Shown here one piece after another: positions 6,901-25,070 of a stretch of 25,403 nt of DNA. The DNA comes from a virus: positions 1 to 25,403 of IMG/VR virus record IMGVR_UViG_3300023175_000181; one strand, 5' to 3'. Every line of letters begins with the position of its first letter. The first letter of the stretch is position 1. The notes beneath the pieces were generated by a model. It did not search any database and was not told the origin of the DNA. It worked only from the letters and a program-made list of their open reading frames with translations. The translations under genes were made by a program, and so were the position numbers.

Positions 6901-7014
6901 ATCTAGAACGTCTAAAAGATTATGCCTTACATGGTAGGGGGTTATAGACTCGTTGGAATTATCACTAAGCTCATTTAATATATTATTAACCAACTGTGGC
7001 TTGGATAGAAGCAT
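3898..7014 (-). CDS. Large tail-fibre protein with two blocks of YadA-head-like repeats (1038 aa)
   Basis: ATG 7014 is preceded by AAGGAAG. The first 45 residues share the docking-type pattern of the 317-aa protein (ILNELSDNSNESITPYHVRHNL). Residues about 70-175 and about 740-820 are two blocks of a short repeat built on GxxNxxIG or NTAIGSQSL (RNTAIGSQSL, DNVSVGHDTL, GNVSIGNFGL; then FNTAYGSEAG, NNVAIGYQSL). Such repeats form left-handed beta-rolls in trimeric adhesins and are also found in phage fibres. Between them are Ser/Asn-rich beta-type sequences. The last about 100 residues include a possible trimeric coiled coil (NKIQDLESKQSDINSSLQSLL) and a small globular end. The gene is 17 bases downstream of the 230-aa tail protein. 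I infer a trimeric fibre or appendage; the ligand is unknown. Confidence 0.75.
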   Translation of the reverse strand: MLLSKPQLVNNILNELSDNSNESITPYHVRHNLLDVLDSLPELFSDLDIRSKNAKTPNTRTSIFGQRAIERSGFPNYESEDNSAFGFSALRLNFKGHRNTAIGSQSLRTNIYGSDNVSVGHDTLAANVSGSGNVSIGNFGLISNKEGDFNISIGHGAGYYISGNDSYQFYLGSAPIDSGVLCSDVDGSNFTPLLRGDLQQNILAINTNDFVGNAKLQVSGSISPSTNEDFDIGSHELIWKNLFASNIFLSSTRKFSNSDNVYFNFDLVPEHDSNYNIGSLSNSLNYLYTDNLLVNNTAVIQNAEFIHQSHYLNKTINLAAKPEEVILDAGGSYSLYDYFLAETSNNLIPYLTKRQVDGAGLRVHVDSGDTFDLLLDTKSSDIPFWKSNISLELPPDAYIKANNLHSFESFEIKLEKPESDNILSIRDDYFYFGEKTYGDNNTLGFGNYNFASQGSSLITSFLTPAQENSVIAQRFFSSAYGSDNAANEGYYIGFELEYENKSATSSIINNSVVNSPSRSCFSIKSFSPFSDQVQSSMTSVDSNGNFSTSVYRRVPINHLVVNRDSSSNIFAITDKENYIPKSTADFSIQDSCAVRVNTTGPNKIAKLQLETNNRGSSEIICNNALHLRYNDVTAARLTDHNLDLFNNTSGTHNFSVNIGDLVNKSSSIGLVHSASSPVAASGYGAIFTKEKIVGDIQSSSLFFIDSSGNIFDMITTSMNSSDGLLFINNTNVAGGLNSFDNKKEHSSNNNTGLGFNSLNQISEGSFNTAYGSEAGKSLTTGSNNVAIGYQSLMNNKNSRHNICIGTDGVGLSVNSDFNFLLGLDDDHILLKGILGPNNENKKLQLPNNGLLEINNSTNSESLKINSNSIEVMDIGGSNYPDYSFKFNFSGNFSKTLLELNHEDPAMTNPTSYIEVDGPFAELSGNLKLKGGICFSDGSFMNSSDSNKIQDLESKQSDINSSLQSLLVEGSCTSTISRPESINMPTYGSIMDLQGSLITVHNRDPNLTIKKGDYVVAIRIGSEYRPIWVSNEFNALVSF

Positions 7015-7031
7015 AAATCACTTCCTTTTTT

Positions 7032-7724
7032 TTAGTGAATGCTAATTTCAAGAGAGTTGGTATCAAACTTAATGCTATCTCCAGCAAAAACGTATCTAGG
7101 GTTATTAAGTTCCGCATAAAGTAATAGATTTCCAGACTGATGATCTGGGCTGTCCAAAATAGCTACTCCAGAAACCCAACCCCAGTCAGTCAGAGCGGTG
7201 TCGAATACTAACTGTGTAGTATTTTTAATAAACCCATTACCTTCGTACATTGTATAGCCCGGATTTGACTCACCGCTTGCTGTTAAGCTGTGAGGACCAA
7301 AAAATGAAATTCCGGGATATTCTGAAAAAGTGTATTCGTCTGCCGTTTTGGCATTATTGACTGCATCTATGTCATTATTTGTAGCGGTAGATTCAGATAA
7401 GTAAAGAGGATAAAAATAACCAGAAGATGGTACATCCTCAGTAAAAACTGTAAAAGCTGTAATGTCATCGAAACCAGATCTTCCCCAATGAGAATTTCCA
7501 TTGACAGAAGGATTTCCTAGACTTATTCTGTTATAATTCGTGCTAACAGAAACAGAGTCAAGCTGACTTGAAACTGGAATTTCTGGAATTGTAGATCCAG
7601 AGTCGTTGTCTTGCGGTACGCCACTAGTTAAAGCTATGGAAATATTTTCAGGCTTAGAAAAAACTTCCGTCCTAAATAGATGTGTCAATATGCCAGATTC
7701 TAAATAATCTGATAAAGCTGCCAT
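7032..7724 (-). CDS. Minor tail / structural protein (230 aa)
   Basis: The N-terminus (LSDYLESGILTHLFRTEVFS, then ENISIALTSG) matches a pattern common in phage proteins annotated as minor tail or fibre-associated, where an SxYLExxLLxHxF helix is followed by a beta strand. The rest is beta-rich and Gly/Ser/Asn-rich (YNRISLGNPSVNG, GFDDITAFTVFTEDV, WGWVSGVAILDS). The C-terminus (FAGDSIKFDTNSLEISIH) also fits that family, in which the last strand often reads as an AGDSIxF element. It is the first gene after the hairpin that follows the capsid gene and just precedes the 1038-aa fibre, so it may join fibre to particle. The structural assignment is fairly safe; the exact position in the virion is not known. 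Confidence 0.65.
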   Translation of the reverse strand: MAALSDYLESGILTHLFRTEVFSKPENISIALTSGVPQDNDSGSTIPEIPVSSQLDSVSVSTNYNRISLGNPSVNGNSHWGRSGFDDITAFTVFTEDVPSSGYFYPLYLSESTATNNDIDAVNNAKTADEYTFSEYPGISFFGPHSLTASGESNPGYTMYEGNGFIKNTTQLVFDTALTDWGWVSGVAILDSPDHQSGNLLLYAELNNPRYVFAGDSIKFDTNSLEISIH

Positions 7725-7775
7725 ATTTTAGCTCCAATTCATGATTCCTTTGGTGATAAATGCCCATTAAGGAAT

Positions 7776-7802
7776 AAGCCACCCCCTGACCGAAGGTGGC
7801 TT
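7776..7802. terminator. Hairpin terminator after the capsid gene (bidirectional-looking)
   Basis: A perfect 8-bp stem, AAGCCACC (7776-7783) and GGTGGCTT (7795-7802), encloses an 11-base loop. On the plus strand it runs into TTTTT; on the minus strand it is preceded by AAAAA and followed by TTATTCCTT. It sits 38 bases past the capsid stop codon, so it probably ends or attenuates leftward transcription there. Confidence 0.7.
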
Positions 7803-8875: not shown

Positions 8876-9355
8876 TCAGGGAAGGTTTACTTCGACTTTA
8901 GCGTAGCCGTCAGCATCCTTAGCTGATAAGAATCGGCCTACTACCTTGCCATTAGTACCAACGGCGTTGCTAAGATAACCAACTTCAGCGCCGCTTGTAG
9001 CGTCTGAAAGATAAGCAACATCACCAACACCGGGGGTAACACCAGTTTCAATGGCGTTAGTTACGACATAACCCTTGCGGAGTATCGTAACTTTACCACC
9101 CTTTTGAACCTCGTCCTTGTGCTGGTTGAGGTGAGTTCTGGTAAGGTCTTTGTTAACAACATCGTTAAGCAGGATTCCAGCTGGAACGCTATCAGCGTCA
9201 GCAGCTTCGGCAGCAACGAGGGCTACACCCTGATCCATAGCAGCGCCAGAACCAGTACCGTCTTGATAAACTACGACAAGACCACGATCAAGCACGGTGT
9301 CGCAGAAAAAACTAATATCTGTCTGGAGTTCATATCTGTCTGATTTTAAAGCCAT
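8876..9355 (-). CDS. Capsid decoration / cement protein
   Basis: This 159-aa, Gly/Ala/Val-rich, mostly beta protein lies between scaffold and capsid genes. That is the normal place for head decoration or stabilisation proteins such as lambda gpD or the DUF2190-like group. The central pattern resembles DUF2190-type proteins: an AGILLNDVVNKD segment, a KVTILRKGYVVTNAI strand pair, GVTPGVGDVAYLSDA and KVVGRFLSAKDADGYAKVEV. The start at 9355 is preceded by AAAGGAG. It should bind the outside of the capsid lattice and be made in amounts similar to the coat protein. The role is inferred from position and composition; no catalytic residues are evident. Confidence 0.75.
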   Translation of the reverse strand: MALKSDRYELQTDISFFCDTVLDRGLVVVYQDGTGSGAAMDQGVALVAAEAADADSVPAGILLNDVVNKDLTRTHLNQHKDEVQKGGKVTILRKGYVVTNAIETGVTPGVGDVAYLSDATSGAEVGYLSNAVGTNGKVVGRFLSAKDADGYAKVEVNLP

Positions 9356-19035: not shown

Positions 19036-19821
19036 CTAATCCTTTACTGTTTCTGGACTTAAGAATGGTTGATCGACTGTTCCATCTTCATACTTATGGA
19101 AAGATGACAATCTTTCCTCTTCTTTCTTCATCGCTATTCTCATCTTTTCCATCTCGATGCCGTAACGCTTCATTCGTTCTGGATCTTGCATCATTGCCGC
19201 AACCCAGCTTGTGAAGCTCTGCTTGCTATCTTCCAACCTTTTGATTCTTTGTTCGCGGGTTCCTTTCATTTCACGCAACATGCTGGCTTTTTTCGCTTGC
19301 AGTTCTCTGTAGTCCCGATTGAGGCTTTCTTGTGAAGCTCTTAGTGAAGCAACTTGTCGTTCTAGGTTAATAATGTAATCGTGATCCTGCTGATCCTTGT
19401 CTCTAGAGCGTTCGTCCTTGATCATTTTATCGTATACGTTAATTTGTTCGATATTCTCCTTGTTACCCTTCAGGCATCTATTCATGAGTATCTCTAGCTT
19501 AATAACATCAACAACTTGTAATTCTTCTGTTGGGAATACATCATCCTTGAACTGTGAGATGATTCTGGACCAGTGATATTTAAACAACTCTAATTCGTGG
19601 TCAGTGAACTGGGCCTTTAGTTCAACCCAGTAGGGGCGGTCTTCAAGTGAATACGCAGCGAACTCTTCATTCGTAAGCCCTACCTTGAACTTGCGCTTAA
19701 TAAAACTTTCTACAGAAGAAGTATCTCTGTTGAGTTTCTTCGCAATGTCTTCTGGTGTCATACTATCGACCAAGCGGGCAATTGTACGCTCTTCGTCTTT
19801 AGATATTCTACCTTTCTTCAT
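19036..19821 (-). CDS. Helix-turn-helix plus coiled-coil protein, candidate small terminase
   Basis: Residues about 5-50 (numbering from ATG) look like a helix-turn-helix: ISKDEERTIARLVDSMTPED is followed by IAKKLNRDTSSVESFIKRKF. The middle (YWVELKAQFTDHELELFKYH) is helical. Residues about 145-215 form a long charged coiled coil (INLERQVASLRASQESLNRD). A DNA-binding N-terminus with an oligomerising coiled coil is the build of small terminase subunits, and no other candidate lies near the large terminase. Against this, the protein is long (261 aa) and six to seven genes away from the large subunit. I choose ATG 19821; a TTG two codons earlier has better Shine-Dalgarno spacing and is possible. 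The start overlaps the sigma gene by 14 bases. Confidence 0.6.
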   Translation of the reverse strand: MKKGRISKDEERTIARLVDSMTPEDIAKKLNRDTSSVESFIKRKFKVGLTNEEFAAYSLEDRPYWVELKAQFTDHELELFKYHWSRIISQFKDDVFPTEELQVVDVIKLEILMNRCLKGNKENIEQINVYDKMIKDERSRDKDQQDHDYIINLERQVASLRASQESLNRDYRELQAKKASMLREMKGTREQRIKRLEDSKQSFTSWVAAMMQDPERMKRYGIEMEKMRIAMKKEEERLSSFHKYEDGTVDQPFLSPETVKD

Positions 19822-20275
19822 TGTCAATAAAGCTCCTTATGAAATCTAAAAGCTTGTCTTTTCTATTTTTCTGTATAGATACGCCATTGCAAAGTTTTAG
19901 ATAATCTTCTCTTAAGCTAAATGGAATTTTCTCATCTATTTTTTCCAGTATTTCTTTTTGTATTATATAGTCTTCTAGGTTGTAAGAATCATTTGCTATA
20001 TTGTCATCTAAGATATATTGGGGAGATTTTATTTTTTTCTTGTGCTGATTTTCTTTAACGTAATAGTTGTCCCTTACGAAATTCTTAAGCCTATTAGACA
20101 AATGCACAGACATAAAATTCTCTAAAGGTCTGTCGTTGTCGTATCGAGAAAGGGCTTCGTGGCATATGATGAAAGCTTCTTGCTTAATGTCTTCTAAGTC
20201 GTAATCTCTAAAAGTATACTTGTGCGCGATTTTGTTTATTACCTTCTCTATAATTTTGTAGGTTTGTTCATCCAT
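19808..20275 (-). CDS. Small sigma-70 family factor resembling phage T4 gp55
   Basis: Residues 24-75 carry sigma region 2 (YDLEDIKQEAFIICHEALSR, then the FMSVHLSNRLKNFVRDNYY helix), the part that binds the beta-prime clamp helices and the -10 DNA. Nothing like a full region 3 or 4 follows. The C-terminal 60 residues are charged and end in a short hydrophobic-acidic helix (KLLDFIRSFIDNEER). T4 gp55 and relatives have this same shape: they recognise only a -10-like sequence and use a C-terminal segment to contact the sliding clamp. This would be the factor that turns on the late, leftward genes. There is no Shine-Dalgarno; the ATG is one base after the upstream stop, so translation is likely coupled. 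The sigma fold is confident; the gp55-type role is an inference. Confidence 0.8.
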   Translation of the reverse strand: MDEQTYKIIEKVINKIAHKYTFRDYDLEDIKQEAFIICHEALSRYDNDRPLENFMSVHLSNRLKNFVRDNYYVKENQHKKKIKSPQYILDDNIANDSYNLEDYIIQKEILEKIDEKIPFSLREDYLKLCNGVSIQKNRKDKLLDFIRSFIDNEER

Positions 20276-21038: not shown

Positions 21039-21165
21039 TTTCTTCCTCTTGTATTAATTTAGCCAAACATTTGTCTTTTTTGCAAAGATCTTCAGCAACA
21101 GACTCTTCTAGGCTTCCCTTTGCTTTGCATTTCAATTGGCATTCTAACTGTTTAGGTTCATTCAT
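20998..21165 (-). CDS. 55-aa Cys-pair protein, first gene of the leftward set
   Basis: ATG 21165 has AAGGAG at a good distance (7 bases) and lies just downstream of a TATAAT-bearing promoter, so this is the first gene of the leftward operon. The peptide begins MNEPKQLECQLKCKAKGSLE and has cysteines at 9, 13, 28 and 33 (C-x3-C then C-x4-C), which could bind one zinc ion. Its C-terminus is strongly acidic (EEENAPEDKNDDSRD). A small Cys-pair protein might be a zinc-bound helical hairpin or a disulfide-linked one; I do not recognise the family. The last 41 bases overlap the 253-aa gene. Confidence 0.6.
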   Translation of the reverse strand: MNEPKQLECQLKCKAKGSLEESVAEDLCKKDKCLAKLIQEEENAPEDKNDDSRDS

Positions 21166-21213: not shown

Positions 21214-21399
21214 ACTGGATAATTTTATTCGGCAGATGGCAAGCTTGCGAAGAAGCTGGGGCTTATTTGAGGAGATCGGGTAATACATTTAAATAAATTT
21301 TGATGATTGTGTTTTGACCACCCACGGTTTTTTATGGGGAAATAGTAAGAGCGTTTTATAAGTTATAATTGGGCATACCTAGTAAGTGGGGTGTCAGTT

Positions 21400-21426
21400 G
21401 GGCCACGGCCCCCTCGAAAGAGGGGT
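21400..21426 (-). repeat. GC-rich hairpin repeat, inverted half copy (R5)
   Basis: On the minus strand this reads ACCCCTCTTTCGAGGGGG followed by CCGTGGCCC, matching the first half of the repeats at 22384 and 23776. On the plus strand it forms CCCCTC-GAAA-GAGGGG, a 6-bp stem with a GNRA tetraloop. It is the only copy in the opposite orientation and lies at the divergent junction. Confidence 0.65.
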
Positions 21427-21445
21427 ATTAAATAAAAAAGTTTTT

Positions 21446-21461
21446 TGGCATGATATTTGCA
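21446..21461 (+). promoter_or_regulatory. Sigma-54-like -24/-12 site, copy 1
   Basis: TGGCATGATATTTGCA has GG and GC separated by exactly 10 bases, the spacing required for sigma-54 promoters (consensus TGGCACG-N4-TTGCW). Nearly the same 16 bases occur at 23237. It is 50 bases upstream of the sigma-70 -35 for the same gene. A phage-specific operator is the alternative. Confidence 0.45.
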
Positions 21462-21495
21462 GTAGAAAAAATCCAAAAATTTTTCAAGAAAGTAC

Positions 21496-21524
21496 TTGAC
21501 AACTGACGATTAGATGTATATACT
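21496..21524 (+). promoter_or_regulatory. Sigma-70 promoter for the first rightward gene
   Basis: TTGACA (21496-21501) is followed after 17 bases by TATACT (21519-21524). The gene starts 40 bases further on. The -35 is perfect. Confidence 0.75.
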
Positions 21525-21564
21525 TAGGACATAAGAAACAAACACTAACCAAAAGGAAAAGGAC

Positions 21565-21759
21565 ATGACCAAGTTTATCCCCTACTTCGAAGCAAATGGC
21601 GTTCGATACACTATCCTCAATAAGATGCGAATTTTCCTTTCGCAGAACAATCAAGTTCTTGCTGTTCAATCAGCAGACACCTTTCCTGCTAAGGTTTCAC
21701 AAGATCCGCTCTTGGTTCGCTTCTGGCAAAATGAACTGAATAGGACTTATAGCAACTAA
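21565..21759 (+). CDS. Small hypothetical early protein (64 aa)
   Basis: This is a basic, soluble peptide starting MTKFIPYFEANGVRYTILNK. ATG 21565 has AAGGAAAAGG ahead of it and a strong sigma-70 promoter 40 bases upstream, so it is very likely expressed. The sequence suggests a small alpha/beta fold: two strands (GVRYTIL, MRIFLSQNNQVLAVQ), then a helix (DPLLVRFWQNELNRTY). I do not recognise the family. The position as first gene after the divergent region and the host-type promoter point to an early host-takeover protein. No membrane segment or Cys cluster is present. Confidence 0.7.
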   Translation: MTKFIPYFEANGVRYTILNKMRIFLSQNNQVLAVQSADTFPAKVSQDPLLVRFWQNELNRTYSN

Positions 21760-21832
21760 GGGAAGGGAAGGGCAGGAATTGCCTGATTCTACCACAACAA
21801 CCACAATTTTGACAAAAAAAAGATTTTAGGAC

Positions 21833-21861
21833 TTGACAGCCGGTTGCCGATACTGTAGAAT
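21833..21861 (+). promoter_or_regulatory. Sigma-70 promoter for the four-gene micro-operon
   Basis: TTGACA (21833-21838), 17-base spacer, TAGAAT (21856-21861). The first ATG is 24 bases downstream, with AAAGGAG between. This is a close match to consensus. Confidence 0.8.
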
Positions 21862-21885
21862 AGAGACAACAAAGGAGAATTGACG

Positions 21886-21978
21886 ATGAACGAATCAGAT
21901 CAAGAATTACTGTTGATTTTGGGTTTTCTAGTTGTGACGATTGTTTCTGTTTTCTGCCACTACACCCCTATCTGCTAA
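21886..21978 (+). CDS. 30-aa membrane micropeptide
   Basis: ATG 21886 has AAAGGAG about 8 bases upstream and sits immediately after a near-consensus promoter. The peptide is MNESDQELLLILGFLVVTIV plus SVFCHYTPIC: a short acidic N-terminus, one hydrophobic helix of about 17 residues, and a short end with two Cys. It is the first of four tightly spaced genes (10-base gap to the next ATG). The family is unknown. Peptides like this in phage early regions often act on host membrane proteins or superinfection, but that is only analogy. Confidence 0.7.
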   Translation: MNESDQELLLILGFLVVTIVSVFCHYTPIC

Positions 21979-21988
21979 GGTGAAACCA

Positions 21989-22129
21989 ATGGGACTTGAT
22001 TTTGACTACTTCGCTGAACTTGAGGCATACGAGGCACGGGCTGAATACGAGGCTTGGCTTGACGAGCAAGAGCAGGAATTTTTGGCAACGATTGACGATA
22101 ACCCATACTGTGAAGAGGTGGTAGAATGA
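21989..22129 (+). CDS. 46-aa acidic protein
   Basis: I take ATG 21989, which has AAGGTG 7 bases upstream, over an earlier in-frame ATG at 21941 that lies inside the preceding gene. The peptide (MGLDFDYFAELEAYEARAEY, then EAWLDEQEQEFLATIDDNPY) is very rich in Glu/Asp, Tyr and Ala, and is predicted mostly helical. Its TGA overlaps the ATG of the next gene. Highly acidic small phage proteins often mimic DNA to block host nucleic-acid-binding proteins; this would fit but is not shown. Confidence 0.7.
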   Translation: MGLDFDYFAELEAYEARAEYEAWLDEQEQEFLATIDDNPYCEEVVE

Positions 22130-22200
22130 GCGGAGAAGATAAGTTTCTTCTGGTGTTTGCGTTTCTTGTTGGCTGTTTCACTGTACTTTTCATCAACTGA
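22126..22200 (+). CDS. 24-aa membrane micropeptide
   Basis: The ATG overlaps the previous stop (ATGA), with GAGG about 8 bases upstream. The whole product is MSGEDKFLLVFAFLVGCFTV plus LFIN, essentially one membrane-spanning helix with a short polar N-terminus. It is among the smallest coding units one can support by sequence alone. Support comes from its start/stop coupling on one side, the Shine-Dalgarno, and its similarity in layout to the 30-aa peptide two genes earlier. Confidence 0.55.
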   Translation: MSGEDKFLLVFAFLVGCFTVLFIN

Positions 22201-22207
22201 GGATAGT

Positions 22208-22372
22208 ATGTACAATTTTGAGAATTGGGAAACTAGGGAAATTCAGTCTTGGTTGAAGAATGGGCAAATTGCCCTAGATACTGCAACTGGAGCAAGCAGG
22301 GAAATCTGGTTGTGCATCATCCGTGGTGCTGCAAAAGAGTTGCAATTCCGCTGGAAATACAATCTACTGTAG
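22208..22372 (+). CDS. 54-aa small soluble protein, last of the micro-operon
   Basis: ATG 22208 has GAGGA immediately upstream (overlapping the previous TGA), so I prefer it to an in-frame ATG at 22157 inside the 24-aa gene. The peptide starts MYNFENWETREIQSWLKNGQ and is predicted as three short helices with an aromatic-rich start and a basic end (IIRGAAKELQFRWKYNLL). The family is not recognised. The double-hairpin repeat R1 begins 12 bases after its stop, which may end the transcript. Confidence 0.65.
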   Translation: MYNFENWETREIQSWLKNGQIALDTATGASREIWLCIIRGAAKELQFRWKYNLL

Positions 22373-22383
22373 TGTACAAATGT

Positions 22384-22436
22384 CACCCCCCTTCCGAGGG
22401 GGCCGTGGCCCGCCGCGAACCCCCCATTAGAGGGGT
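22384..22436 (+). repeat. GC-rich double-hairpin repeat R1
   Basis: The first hairpin is CCCCCT-TCCG-AGGGGG (UNCG-type tetraloop). A GC spacer follows (CCGTGGCCCGCCGCGAA), then a second C-run/G-run pair (CCCCCCATTAGAGGGG). Copy R3 at 23776 shares it almost fully, including the preceding ACAAATGTCACCCC. There is no T-run after it, so it is not a classic intrinsic terminator. Confidence 0.8.
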
Positions 22437-22585
22437 GTGTATTACACGATCTATCCCGCTACGGCCAACCCCCCAAAGGGGTGGCGCAAAATGCAATGCA
22501 AAATGCAAAAAACGTAGCAGAATGCAGCACGGTCACAATGGGGGGTGTATACGAAAACCCCTTGTTTTATAGACTCAAAAATATT

Positions 22586-22615
22586 TTGCGAATGGCACGG
22601 TATATGCATTATATA
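22586..22615 (+). promoter_or_regulatory. Promoter region with a sigma-54-like site, copy 2
   Basis: TGGCACGGTATATGCA (22593-22608) has GG and GC exactly 10 bases apart and matches the -24 half of the sigma-54 consensus perfectly. A weaker sigma-70 reading of the same DNA is TTGCGA (22586-22591) with TATATA (22610-22615). The gene starts at 22659. Confidence 0.45.
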
Positions 22616-22658
22616 TAGGTATTGAAATTGGAAAACTTGACTCTGGAGAATCAGAAAA

Positions 22659-22862
22659 ATGGAAAATTACGCTAAGAATTTCGATATCCTCGCCAACCTT
22701 CCTCGTATCCGCAAGCGGAAAATTTGGGAAGTGATCATGGATGGCAAGGTTGTCCAGTTGGTCGGTGCAACCGACAACCGCAAGATTACCGCAGAGCGGT
22801 ATATCGCCAACAAGTATCCCAACGCTCAGTTCACGCTGAAGTTTCTGGAATATCGCATCTAG
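22659..22862 (+). CDS. Small basic protein (67 aa)
   Basis: ATG 22659 has GGAG about 11 bases upstream. The sequence MENYAKNFDILANLPRIRKR continues as KIWEVIMDGKVVQLVGATDN and ends in a helix and strand (KITAERYIANKYPNAQFTL). Strands plus a basic patch (RIRKRK) suggest a small nucleic-acid-binding or protein-binding fold. I do not recognise the family. Its TAG is one base before the CCCCC-AACGT-GGGGG hairpin that runs directly into the -35 of the next promoter. Confidence 0.7.
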   Translation: MENYAKNFDILANLPRIRKRKIWEVIMDGKVVQLVGATDNRKITAERYIANKYPNAQFTLKFLEYRI

Positions 22863-22863
22863 T

Positions 22864-22906
22864 CCCCCAACGTGGGGGTTGACAAGAAAACTTTTTTTGG
22901 TAGACT
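22864..22906 (+). promoter_or_regulatory. Hairpin-promoter cassette, copy 1
   Basis: CCCCC-AACGT-GGGGG (22864-22878) is immediately followed by TTGACA (22879-22884), 16 bases, and TAGACT (22901-22906). The same order and much of the same sequence recur at 23469-23512. The hairpin could end the upstream transcript while the promoter restarts transcription. Confidence 0.75.
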
Positions 22907-22933
22907 GTTAGGAAAGAGAAGGAGAAAGAGACT

Positions 22934-23152
22934 ATGGAAGATTTTGGATTTTGCGGCGGTTGCGACGACATCCCCACGCCTGCGGTTCAGCCGATGGCTG
23001 TTGAACCAATGGTGGTTCAGGAGTCGCAAGGCGACCGCTCTCACCCCGCCGATTGGGGTTGGCCCGAATGGTGGGGGTCGTTCGGCTATGGGGATTCCTA
23101 CATCCCACCACGCCACGAATGGCCGGAAGGCTGGAAGCCCAGTAGGGGTTAA
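22934..23152 (+). CDS. Trp/Pro-rich small protein (72 aa)
   Basis: Two other frames are open here; this one is chosen because ATG 22934 has AGGAG 9 bases upstream and lies 27 bases past a strong promoter. The peptide starts MEDFGFCGGCDDIPTPAVQP and has a CGGC pair. Its second half is rich in Trp, Pro and Gly (DWGWPEWWGSFGYGDSY) and looks disordered or aromatic-ladder-like. The family is unknown. Repeat R2 begins at its stop codon. The local GC content is much higher than in the neighbouring genes. Confidence 0.6.
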   Translation: MEDFGFCGGCDDIPTPAVQPMAVEPMVVQESQGDRSHPADWGWPEWWGSFGYGDSYIPPRHEWPEGWKPSRG

Positions 23153-23204
23153 CCCCCCTTTCGAGGGGGTCGTGGCCCTCCCCGCCCCCCCATTAGAGGG
23201 GTAT
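23151..23204 (+). repeat. GC-rich double-hairpin repeat R2
   Basis: The first hairpin is CCCCCT-TTCG-AGGGGG, a UUCG tetraloop with a T-A closing pair. The spacer is TCGTGGCCCTCCCCG and the second pair is CCCCCCATTAGAGGGG, identical to R1 in that part. It overlaps the stop codon of the 72-aa gene. No T-run follows. Confidence 0.8.
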
Positions 23205-23236
23205 AGCAAACACTGTGCCAAATAGAAAAAAACTTT

Positions 23237-23252
23237 TGGCATGAAATTTGCA
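23237..23252 (+). promoter_or_regulatory. Sigma-54-like -24/-12 site, copy 3
   Basis: TGGCATGAAATTTGCA differs from the site at 21446 at one base of 16, and again has GG and GC 10 bases apart. It lies 42 bases upstream of the sigma-70 -35 of the same gene, after a hairpin repeat, the same general arrangement as copy 1. Confidence 0.45.
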
Positions 23253-23278
23253 CACCAAAAAAATAATTATTTTTCTAC

Positions 23279-23315
23279 TTGACATTCAAGAATAAGTCTG
23301 TATAATGTCGATATA
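23279..23315 (+). promoter_or_regulatory. Sigma-70 promoter with GTCGATATA leader
   Basis: TTGACA (23279-23284), 16 bases, TATAAT (23301-23306): perfect consensus hexamers. GTCGATATA follows directly (23307-23315) and recurs after the promoter at 23986 and at 25026, so it may be a start-region or operator element. Confidence 0.85.
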
Positions 23316-23341
23316 AGGAATAAGGAAAAGGAGAAATAAAA

Positions 23342-23488
23342 ATGGAAATTCAAATCCTCTACATCTCAGACTGTTGTGGTGCTTATCTTGATGATGCTCA
23401 GATTGAGCATGGTATCTGCAACGATTGCGGTGAGCATTGTGAAATAATCACCGAAGAATATCCTGCCACCCCCGTTTGTGGGGGTTGA
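23342..23488 (+). CDS. 48-aa zinc-ribbon-like protein, paralogue of the last gene
   Basis: ATG 23342 has AAGGAG 9 bases upstream. The peptide MEIQILYISDCCGAYLDDAQ continues IEHGICNDCGEHCEI. Cysteines at 11, 12, 26, 29 and 33 fit a small zinc ribbon (SDCCGA, then GICNDCG). The same SDCCGA...G-[IV]-C-x2-CG pattern occurs in the partial gene at 25290, so the two are a family. The TGA overlaps the -35 of the next promoter, and the CCCCC/GGGGG hairpin lies in its last codons. A nucleic-acid-binding or protein-binding role is a guess from the zinc-ribbon shape. Confidence 0.75.
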   Translation: MEIQILYISDCCGAYLDDAQIEHGICNDCGEHCEIITEEYPATPVCGG

Positions 23489-23512
23489 CAAACACAAAAA
23501 TTTTGGTAGACT
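23469..23512 (+). promoter_or_regulatory. Hairpin-promoter cassette, copy 2
   Basis: CCCCC-GTTTGT-GGGGG (23469-23484) runs directly into TTGACA (23485-23490), 16 bases, and TAGACT (23507-23512). The match to copy 1 covers the hairpin, the -35, the TTTTGG run and the -10. Here the hairpin lies inside the preceding coding sequence. Confidence 0.75.
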
Positions 23513-23538
23513 TTGGAATAACTAAGGAGAAAAACGAA

Positions 23539-23718
23539 ATGATGATTTACCCTACTCAGAACGACTATCGCCAGTATTTCGCCACGATGAGCAAGGAATT
23601 GCTGGCAGTGTGGATCGAAGTTGCAGAACGCAAACTGCCACACTATACTAGGATCGAAGAGGTCGAAACCGTAAAGGCCGCTCTAATCGCGGCTCGTTGT
23701 GCATTGGCTGCTCGATAG
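23539..23718 (+). CDS. Small helical protein (59 aa)
   Basis: I use ATG 23539, with AAGGAG 9 bases upstream and a strong promoter just before; the longer frame from 23476 would begin inside the promoter. The peptide MMIYPTQNDYRQYFATMSKE continues with LLAVWIEVAERKL and ends in an Ala-rich helix (VETVKAALIAARCALAAR). It looks like a two- or three-helix bundle with amphipathic faces. The family is not recognised. It is followed by about 300 bases without a gene. Confidence 0.7.
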   Translation: MMIYPTQNDYRQYFATMSKELLAVWIEVAERKLPHYTRIEEVETVKAALIAARCALAAR

Positions 23719-23775
23719 GAGAGAGATCACCTACGTTCCAAAGTGTCCACCGCTACCGTGGCAGTGGTGAACAAA

Positions 23776-23830
23776 TGTCACCCCACTTCCGAGGGGGCCG
23801 TGGCCCGCCGCGAACCCCCCGTTGGGGTGG
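23776..23830 (+). repeat. GC-rich double-hairpin repeat R3
   Basis: It is nearly identical to R1 from ACAAATGTCACCCC through CCGTGGCCCGCCGCGAA. The first stem has one mismatch (CCCCACT versus CCCCCCT) and the second pair is changed to CCCCCC-GTT-GGGGTGG. The shared length with R1 is about 55-60 bases, the best-matching pair in the set. Confidence 0.8.
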
Positions 23831-23963
23831 TGAACGGTTGTGTACTACCGGAACCGTCCCGGTAACGACTAATGAGACAGCCAGCAAACGCCATGCCAAA
23901 CGCACACAAAATGCTGAAAAGTTGTGTCAAAATCTCTTGACATAAAAATACTTGGAAAACCTC

Positions 23964-24000
23964 TTGACTTCTAAAGAATATCTGCTATAATGTCGATATA
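23964..24000 (+). promoter_or_regulatory. Sigma-70 promoter with GTCGATATA leader
   Basis: TTGACT (23964-23969), 16 bases, TATAAT (23986-23991), then GTCGATATA (23992-24000) exactly as at 23307. The gene starts 19 bases later after AAGGAG. Confidence 0.85.
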
Positions 24001-24019
24001 GAAAGTAAGGAGAAAGAGA

Positions 24020-24214
24020 ATGAGAAAACCTAGTTTCAAGACCGTTGAGAAAAATCTGGCACAGTATGCTAGAAAGATGGATTGCGAAATCGTCAAACAC
24101 CACGACGGTTCCTATTCACTGTACGACCGTAAAATGGATTATGTATCCATTACCAAAGCAACTCGACAGCGTGTTGCAAACGAAGTTTACTATTGGGTTA
24201 GTGCTAGTAAGTAA
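24020..24214 (+). CDS. Small basic protein (64 aa)
   Basis: ATG 24020 has AAGGAG 9 bases upstream. The sequence MRKPSFKTVEKNLAQYARKM continues as DCEIVKHHDGSYSLYDRKMD, then YVSITKATRQRVANEVYYWV. A helix, a beta hairpin (CEIVKHHDGSYSLYD) and a second helix are expected, with excess Lys/Arg. A small nucleic-acid-binding protein is plausible but not shown. It is the first gene of a five-gene rightward unit in which each following gene is close to or overlaps the previous one. Confidence 0.7.
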   Translation: MRKPSFKTVEKNLAQYARKMDCEIVKHHDGSYSLYDRKMDYVSITKATRQRVANEVYYWVSASK

Positions 24215-24226
24215 GAAAGAGTGAAA

Positions 24227-24517
24227 ATGAACGATAACCCGCGACTCTGTTTTTTTGATGTTGACCCCGTAAAGTTTTCTGGTATGATGGATGAACTGTT
24301 GAAGAAAGGTGTTGTTGATATGGCGAATTACCATGATGATGAATGGAATGACATTGACGATGGAATGATTGACGTTGAAAGTTTTAGGGAGATGATTGAG
24401 GATTTTCATGAGGATGATTATTACGATGATAGCATGGATGGGGATTTTGATACGGCCATGCGTGATGCAGGATTCGGAACTGATGAGGACTATGGTTACT
24501 ATGGGGAGGACTATTGA
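24227..24517 (+). CDS. Strongly acidic protein (96 aa)
   Basis: The peptide starts MNDNPRLCFFDVDPVKFSGM. From about residue 30 it is dominated by Asp, Glu, Tyr and Met (YHDDEWNDIDDGMIDVESF, then FHEDDYYDDSMDGDFD and a Tyr-rich tail). The net charge is very negative, which fits a DNA-mimic protein that occupies a host DNA-binding site; known phage examples share only this property. I prefer ATG 24227; GTG 24221 two codons earlier is also possible. The Shine-Dalgarno is weak. The stop TGA overlaps the start of the next gene (TGATG). Confidence 0.7.
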   Translation: MNDNPRLCFFDVDPVKFSGMMDELLKKGVVDMANYHDDEWNDIDDGMIDVESFREMIEDFHEDDYYDDSMDGDFDTAMRDAGFGTDEDYGYYGEDY

Positions 24518-24723
24518 TGAAATACTATAAGTGTAACAATATCACAACTGTAGACGGTGGAGTATATAATCACTGTGTTGTTGGAATTGAGGATATACAG
24601 CCTAGCGGTGACGCTGCATTAGATCGTCAGACTATCCGCGACGATGTAATGACAGCCCTAGAATATTCGCTGGCTGGTGAAGTAGAAAGTTTTTATAACA
24701 TGGAGGAATTACAGTGGGAATAA
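24517..24723 (+). CDS. Small acidic protein (68 aa)
   Basis: ATG 24517 overlaps the previous stop and has GGGGAGG 7 bases upstream. The peptide MKYYKCNNITTVDGGVYNHC continues CVVGIEDIQPSGDAALD, then a helix (RQTIRDDVMTALEYSLAGEV). A strand-loop-strand start with Cys at 6 and 20, then one helix, suggests a small alpha/beta fold. The family is not recognised. Its last codons overlap the GTG start of the next gene by 10 bases. Confidence 0.7.
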   Translation: MKYYKCNNITTVDGGVYNHCVVGIEDIQPSGDAALDRQTIRDDVMTALEYSLAGEVESFYNMEELQWE

Positions 24724-24917
24724 TTCAAGTTGACCCCGCTAGTTTGGCGATAGGATATGTAGCCGGTACACTGTTGTGCTGGTACTTACAAGAAATGCTT
24801 TACGGAGAAAGCACAGATGACAGAGAAGCAAAGAATGACCGTGAACGTATGTATACTAGCCTTTATTCTAGGCACAATGATGTGTCTATTTGTACACCTA
24901 AGCGAAACAGCAAGTAA
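24714..24917 (+). CDS. 67-aa membrane-anchored protein (GTG start)
   Basis: GTG 24714 has GGAGG 8 bases upstream. The peptide begins MGIIQVDPASLAIGYVAGTL, has one membrane helix at about residues 11-29 (LAIGYVAGTLLCWYLQEML), then a charged hydrophilic tail (DDREAKNDRERMY). A second gene in another frame overlaps this tail from 24817. The arrangement, a membrane-anchored charged protein with a second membrane gene inside its end, recalls Rz/Rz1 lysis pairs, but the protein is short and no lysis gene is nearby. Confidence 0.65.
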   Translation: MGIIQVDPASLAIGYVAGTLLCWYLQEMLYGESTDDREAKNDRERMYTSLYSRHNDVSICTPKRNSK

Positions 24918-24945
24918 TCCCGCAACCTTTGCTCCCCCCTTCTGA
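24817..24945 (+). CDS. 42-aa membrane peptide overlapping the previous gene
   Basis: ATG 24817 has GGAG 9 bases upstream, inside the 67-aa gene but in another frame. The peptide MTEKQRMTVNVCILAFILGT continues MMCLFVHLSETASNPATF and ends APPF. It has a basic N-terminus and one hydrophobic helix (VCILAFILGTMMCLFVHL), as in a signal anchor; the Cys at 23 is not in a standard lipobox. The TGA is inside the first stem of repeat R4. About 100 bases overlap the neighbouring gene. The Shine-Dalgarno and membrane helix support it, but real translation is uncertain. Confidence 0.5.
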   Translation: MTEKQRMTVNVCILAFILGTMMCLFVHLSETASNPATFAPPF

Positions 24946-24983
24946 GGGGGACGAGGCGCTCCCCGCCCCCCCATTGGAGGGGT
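24933..24983 (+). repeat. GC-rich double-hairpin repeat R4
   Basis: The first hairpin is CCCCCT-TCTG-AGGGGG. The spacer ACGAGGCGCTCCCCG is related to that of R2. The second pair is CCCCCCCATTGGAGGGG. The sequence after it (TAAAAAATATTTC) has no T-run of terminator type directly after the stem. It overlaps the end of the 42-aa frame. Confidence 0.75.
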
Positions 24984-25025
24984 AAAAAATATTTCTATTT
25001 TCTTTTCAAGTATTCCCGCCAGAGT

Positions 25026-25034
25026 GTCGATATA
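25026..25034 (+). promoter_or_regulatory. Third GTCGATATA leader element
   Basis: The same nine bases follow two strong promoters at 23307 and 23992. Here the -10 position reads CAGAGT and no good -35 is present, although an upstream TTCAAG is shared with the 23279 promoter. It may be a weak or activator-dependent start. Confidence 0.45.
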
Positions 25035-25070
25035 TAGAGTAGTGGACAGGATAACCTACTCTGGAGAAAA

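Follow-up and report, generated by a model that had tools for sequence, protein, structure and literature searches.

The window analyzed here is DNA of an uncultured aquatic phage, 25,403 bases long (IMG/VR record IMGVR_UViG_3300023175_000181), in which late genes run leftward to about position 21,165 and small early genes run rightward from 21,565. Between the early genes lie GC-rich repeats in which runs of C are followed by matching runs of G, and the question raised by this locus is what such an element does. An earlier note on this DNA had described the repeats as double hairpins that might serve in RNA stability, processing or termination, or as a mobile repeat. All of the functional claims made below are inferred from sequence. 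On balance, they favor a reading in which the element is a DNA control module at the boundaries of gene cassettes, with the order palindrome, GC core, palindrome, similar to the promoter early stem-loops (PeSLs) of T4-type phages and not chiefly an RNA hairpin.

Palindromes of the form C4-N3..9-G4 occur 13 times in the window, while 0.6 would be expected from Markov shuffles. All of them fall within 21409-24966, inside the rightward early region, and none is followed by a T-run, as the earlier note had stated. A full element consists of a C-run/G-run palindrome 1, a spacer containing the core GGCCCGCC or a variant of it, and a C-run/G-run palindrome 2. The description of a repeated intergenic family of five copies was correct for the four full copies, but additional copies exist. 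The members named individually are as follows.

21400..21425, + strand: half copy with half core GGGCCACGG and palindrome 2, in direct orientation, at the divergent late/early junction.
22386..22435, + strand: full copy 1, starting 13 nt past the stop codon at 22370-22372, at the junction of a cassette indel in the relatives L085 and L089; palindrome 1 at 22386-22402 (CCCCCC-TTCCGA-GGGGG), core GGCCCGCC at 22407-22414, palindrome 2 at 22420-22435 (CCCCCC-ATTAGA-GGGG).
22469..22484, + strand: extra second-half copy, half core ACGGCC followed by CCCCCC-AAA-GGGGTGG.
22864..22878, + strand: single C-run palindrome CCCCC-AACGT-GGGGG, between a stop codon and a -35 box and touching the TTGACA.
23153..23201, + strand: full copy 2, immediately 3' of the stop codon TAA at 23150-23152, at the other end of the cassette absent from L085 and L089.
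23469..23484, + strand: single C-run palindrome CCCCC-GTTTGT-GGGGG, touching TTGACA.
23781..23830, + strand: full copy 3, with 90% identity to copy 1 plus flanks over 69 bp.
24934..24982, + strand: full copy 4, its left part similar to L085:6946 and its right part to L085:7751.

A related terminase is encoded in 444 viral-contig stretches, and the comparison covered 48 non-redundant early arms. The half copy at 21400 had been called inverted, but it stands in direct orientation; since the element as a whole comes close to being a palindrome, it matches in both orientations. At the homologous position, the relative L086 (5715-5768) possesses both palindromes. Most copies do lie at the ends of gene units, as had been claimed, but the half copy separates two units that diverge from it, a place without any gene end. 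In L086, the palindrome of the second-half copy at 22469 forms the second half of copy 1 itself (6946-6995), so the arrangement in the window looks recombinant.

In most distant relatives, the slots of the window element are filled by another palindrome, 29 bp long and unrelated: CGTAARYC-N13-GACTTACG. Of its 158 half-site pairs, 144 have a gap of exactly 13. The copies are themselves paired, at a period of exactly 53 bp in 74 of 79 cases, and GGCGGGCC or GGCCCGCC lies centered between the two as the core. The core is C-rich on the + strand in 17 unique spacers and G-rich in 40, so either orientation is used. A C-run element (L085, about 9035-9050) shares one core string, GGGGCGGGCCGCG, letter for letter with a CGTAARYC element (L114:14706), and hybrid elements with one arm of each kind are found at L192:3295 and L170:3480 and in L205. 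The window and its close relatives possess C-run arms only. Overall, the comparison shows a core common across lineages, flanked by palindromes (C-run or CGTAARYC-N13-GACTTACG) that are interchangeable modules. The CGTAARYC palindrome is present in at least 120 viral-contig stretches, including clearly different phages (L221, L248). Paired copies around a GC core were observed in L114, L152, L164, L194 and others, and also in L214-L293, among them many aquatic phages. In the L152 lineage, TGAACANNTGTTCA stands 3 nt ahead of TTGACA in place of the single C-run palindrome (2961, 3202, 4467, 4820).

The elements also coincide with the gain and loss of genes. Compared with L085, the window contains 713 extra bases with two small genes (22439-23151), exactly between copies 1 and 2. 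At the empty site, L085 has a single element whose left part is that of window copy 1 and whose right part resembles copy 2, and L089 has the same empty site. Reciprocally, L085 contains 787 extra bases with one gene (6998-7784) between two elements, and window copy 4 is the corresponding empty site, joining the left part of one L085 element to the right part of the other. The protein of this L085 cassette was judged by eye to be a possible endonuclease. The 48 early arms contain 65 indel junctions, of which 19 overlap an element, where 7.9 would be expected; in 11 cases, the additional DNA is bounded by elements on either side. Because the junctions of cassette gain and loss fall inside the element, the comparison shows it to be a seam for modular exchange.

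Whether the palindromes act as RNA or as duplex DNA was addressed by their variation, order and position. The proposal that pairing persists despite changes in loops and stems was not borne out. The group has 76 unique intergenic C-run palindromes; their loop-closing pair is Watson-Crick in 22, compared with 26 after shuffling, and combining the arms of different copies gives folds as good as those of the true pairs (z -0.3). These tests revealed no compensatory changes of the kind expected of a structured RNA, although for the C-run copies they are uninformative because the stems, nearly invariant runs of C and G, hardly vary. In the CGTAARYC family (68 unique copies of P1 and 71 of P2), pairing at symmetric positions is at or below the level of independence at every position except one. 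The predicted folding is strong, from -27 to -37 kcal/mol with z down to -3.6, but the minimum-energy fold pairs the first C-run with the second G-run as one rod instead of two hairpins. No match above the gathering score was found for the element in Rfam 15. Additionally, C-first palindromes number 75 and G-first palindromes 10, with about 3 of each expected, even though both orders fold equally well as RNA. Seventeen single palindromes lie 0-1 nt from the -35 hexamer TTGACA (0 nt in 15, 1 nt in 2). Recognition as duplex DNA is favored by the lack of a covariation signal, the rod-shaped fold, the missing T-runs, the excess of the C-first order, the abutment on the -35 box and the rigid spacing in the CGTAARYC family, and the element probably does not act chiefly as an RNA hairpin.

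The three-part element is placed after the stop codon of a small early unit and before the promoter or promoters of the next one. In the reading as a DNA module, a protein of the phage or its host would recognize the palindromes in duplex form, and the bound protein may control or insulate the adjoining early promoters. The near-identical copies could additionally provide homology for recombination that swaps cassettes of promoter and gene while leaving their control intact, in parallel with the proposal for the PeSLs of T4-type phages. Several points weigh against this explanation. The near-invariance of the C/G stems deprives the covariation test of force for the C-run copies. A stop codon lies within 20 nt of the element in 24 of 59 cases, as expected of terminators. 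The spacing of the C-run arms in the window varies by about +-2, and the rigid geometry is that of the CGTAARYC family. Finally, the indel events are not fully independent, and any repeats located at unit boundaries might by themselves produce the enrichment at seams.

The promoters next to the elements are of two types. Four boxes of the sigma-54 type, TGGCAYGN4WTGCW, occur in the early part of the window, where 0.003 would be expected, and they are listed here with the other promoter features.

21446..21461, + strand: sigma-54-type -24/-12 box TGGCATGATATTTGCA, 3' of the half copy.
22486..22506, + strand: pair of GCAAAATGC palindromes that precede the box at 22593 by about 90-110 bp, candidate upstream activator sites (UAS).
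22593..22608, + strand: sigma-54-type box TGGCACGGTATATGCA, the sole promoter seen for the gene at 22659.
23237..23252, + strand: sigma-54-type box TGGCATGAAATTTGCA, past element copy 2 and ahead of the sigma-70 promoter at 23279.
23279..23306, + strand: sigma-70-type promoter TTGACA-16-TATAAT, serving the unit behind element copy 2.
23883..23898, - strand: sigma-54-type box TGGCATGGCGTTTGCT, facing left.
21496, 21833, 22879, 23485, 23964 and 25216: other sigma-70-type promoters.

The boxes are features adjacent to the element and not the element itself, and they possess the -24 GG and -12 GC at fixed spacing. In 21 records they number 25, compared with 1 in the reversed control, and a scan of the early arms (290 kb) with TGGCAYR gave 106 against 2. 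The offset between -24 and -12 is 12 in 144 cases, while any other offset occurs at most 8 times and the control gives 3. The boxes often form divergent or convergent pairs. For 36 of 67 rightward boxes there is no sigma-70 promoter just downstream, and GCAAAATGC-like palindromes precede 19 of these 36 but only 2 of the other 31. In the early arms, GCAAAATGC has 82 copies (control, 2), situated 75-175 bp upstream of sigma-54-only promoters. It is a candidate activator site with the full form TGTAGCAAAATGCTACA and resembles the NtrC consensus. Promoters of the sigma-54 type need RpoN and an AAA+ activator in the cell; the phages encode no recognizable sigma-54 or sigma-54 activator, so host factors would be needed. 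A motif, TGTCGATATA, also lies just past the -10 box of several early promoters in the window (23300-23315, 23986-24000, 25023-25037) and in relatives.

The boxes suggest that phage early genes respond to host physiology, for which no precedent was found in the literature searched, and together with their upstream palindromes they are possibly a more surprising discovery than the element. It is conceivable, and offered here as a tentative proposal, that a new class of phage operator, with interchangeable palindromes around a GC core, marks the early cassettes of a large group of uncultured aquatic phages and acts in concert with host sigma-54 promoters that have their own upstream activator sites. 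If so, early genes would be wired to the sigma-54, possibly nitrogen, network of the host and exchanged as complete regulated units.

Other explanations of the element must be set against the DNA module. In one, the hairpins form in RNA transcribed from upstream and terminate or trim it ahead of the next promoter, as U-less terminators or insulators in the manner of a strict PeSL. The order of stop codon, palindrome and promoter agrees with this, as does the strong predicted folding. In one relative (L096:14144), GTAAGTC..GACTTAC is followed by T7, and a title cited in PMC4503421 terms the PeSLs composite promoter-terminator motifs. Nevertheless, the window copies lack the T-run that follows the GC hairpin of an intrinsic terminator, though relatives use T-run terminators elsewhere, including at the convergent ends of gene blocks (G003:69766, G004:29569, G007:63764). 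Covariation is absent, the C-first order is required, copies occur in a divergent junction where no gene ends, and the best fold is rod-shaped. This explanation is retained as a rather unlikely one, because stop codons adjoin many of the elements. The same objections apply to hairpins that process RNA or stabilize 3' ends; the very stable GC structure at gene ends would suit such a role, but the rigid joining of single palindromes to the -35 box would be needless for a stabilizer, and this explanation is highly improbable. The roles in RNA stability, processing or termination put forward in the earlier note are unsupported by covariation, strand order and geometry, although they keep a lesser probability.

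The palindromes of the element might instead be enhancer sites (UAS) for a sigma-54 activator, since a sigma-54 box follows 29 of 74 CGTAARYC pairs and three window elements precede such boxes. However, the box is absent for the remaining 45 pairs and for the window copy at 24934, and the role was set aside because GCAAAATGC, given its position upstream of sigma-54-only promoters, fits it better; the likelihood that the element itself has this function is small. Least probable is a mobile repeat spreading in phage or host, akin to the repetitive extragenic palindromes (REPs) and bacterial interspersed mosaic elements (BIMEs) of bacteria. Paired intergenic palindromes around a linker do form a BIME layout, and cassette indels occur at the copies; to that extent the earlier suggestion of a REP-like mobile repeat points in the right direction, the copies being seams of cassette gain and loss. 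Nothing, however, shows self-movement: insertions consisting of just the element were not seen, and the indels carry whole genes, consistent with recombination between repeats. A REP or BIME would be present in many copies in a bacterial chromosome, but a collection of genomes from 84,980 bacterial and archaeal species contained no genuine copy of the C-run element with core, the sole match being a chance one in an Acidobacteria coding sequence of 70% GC. The DNA module at cassette boundaries is the best-supported explanation, with moderate confidence.

The phages that carry this module are not of the T4 type. The best matches of their terminase are Bacillus siphophages and the Microcystis phage MaeS, at 25-27%, the match to the T4-type terminase N-domain is weak only, and the capsid search matched phage G alone. 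No similar DNA was found in isolated phages. A scan of 308 kb of planctomycete plasmids gave one perfect CGTAARYC-N13-GACTTACG, at 44421 of pISOP01 from Isosphaera pallida (L336:44421), upstream of a plasmid replication initiator. Short-query searches of plasmids and phages produced matches at chance level only. The single plasmid site is no more than a lead toward Planctomycetota as the host phylum.

Near the early junction, the window encodes a sigma-70 region-2 protein that is a candidate late sigma factor (19808-20275, - strand) and a conserved D5-like transcriptional regulator (phrog_323; 19036-19827, - strand). An inverted motif, GGGTAATACATTT...ACCACCC (21278-21335), is conserved upstream of the leftward late operon, for which it probably serves as promoter or operator; a sigma-54 box facing left lies next to it in L103 and L148. 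Relatives also encode several tRNAs and transfer-messenger RNA genes (L090:4570-4908, L109:19178-19529), with the tags ADTSVLALAA and GETHLALAA.

Among known systems, the operators of CsoR/RcnR-type metalloregulators are palindromes of a C-tract followed by a G-tract. The element resembles them, by analogy only, in having C-first G/C-tract palindromes of a kind recognized as duplex DNA, but it is paired around a core. A phage-encoded regulator of the CsoR type was considered and rejected, as no gene of that family (PF02583) is present in 13 phage records. Promoters of the NtrC/NifA type have a sigma-54 consensus with upstream activator sites. The TGGCAYGN4WTGCW boxes, whose two parts are strictly offset by 12 nt and which have palindromes at 75-175 bp on their upstream side, are similar, although these phage genomes lack a recognizable sigma-54 or activator and the boxes are neighbors of the element. 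The BIMEs of bacterial chromosomes, which include GTAG- and CGTC-tagged REPs (PMC3733652), share with the element short extragenic palindromes that are paired with a linker between genes. In contrast, the element is confined to phage early regions, with no genuine host copies found, and is strictly spaced to promoters; REPs are also characterized by a tag and a linked RAYT transposase.

The closest known system is the set of PeSLs found in T4-type phages (Arbiol et al., 2010; Comeau et al., 2014; both as cited in PMC4503421). As described there, they delimit cassettes whose genes are gained, lost and shuffled in the variable early region. Both features recur here, with intergenic palindromes and early promoters forming cassettes in a variable early region and with modular gain and loss between related phages, as seen in the two reciprocal L085 indels and the excess of indel junctions at elements. 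The differences are that the phages are not T4-type, that two palindromes of two unrelated, interchangeable kinds surround a fixed GC core, that sigma-54 boxes and UAS-like palindromes occupy the same regions, that there is no T-run, and that the terminator part of a PeSL is not supported. The two palindrome types around one core amount to a natural experiment on what such a module requires. Hundreds of related contigs from aquatic metagenomes represent these phages, which also show how early genes may be assembled and swapped, each gene bringing its own control sites and the common boundary module serving as the seam. Overall, the element is best regarded as a PeSL-like cassette boundary of a new, modular kind.

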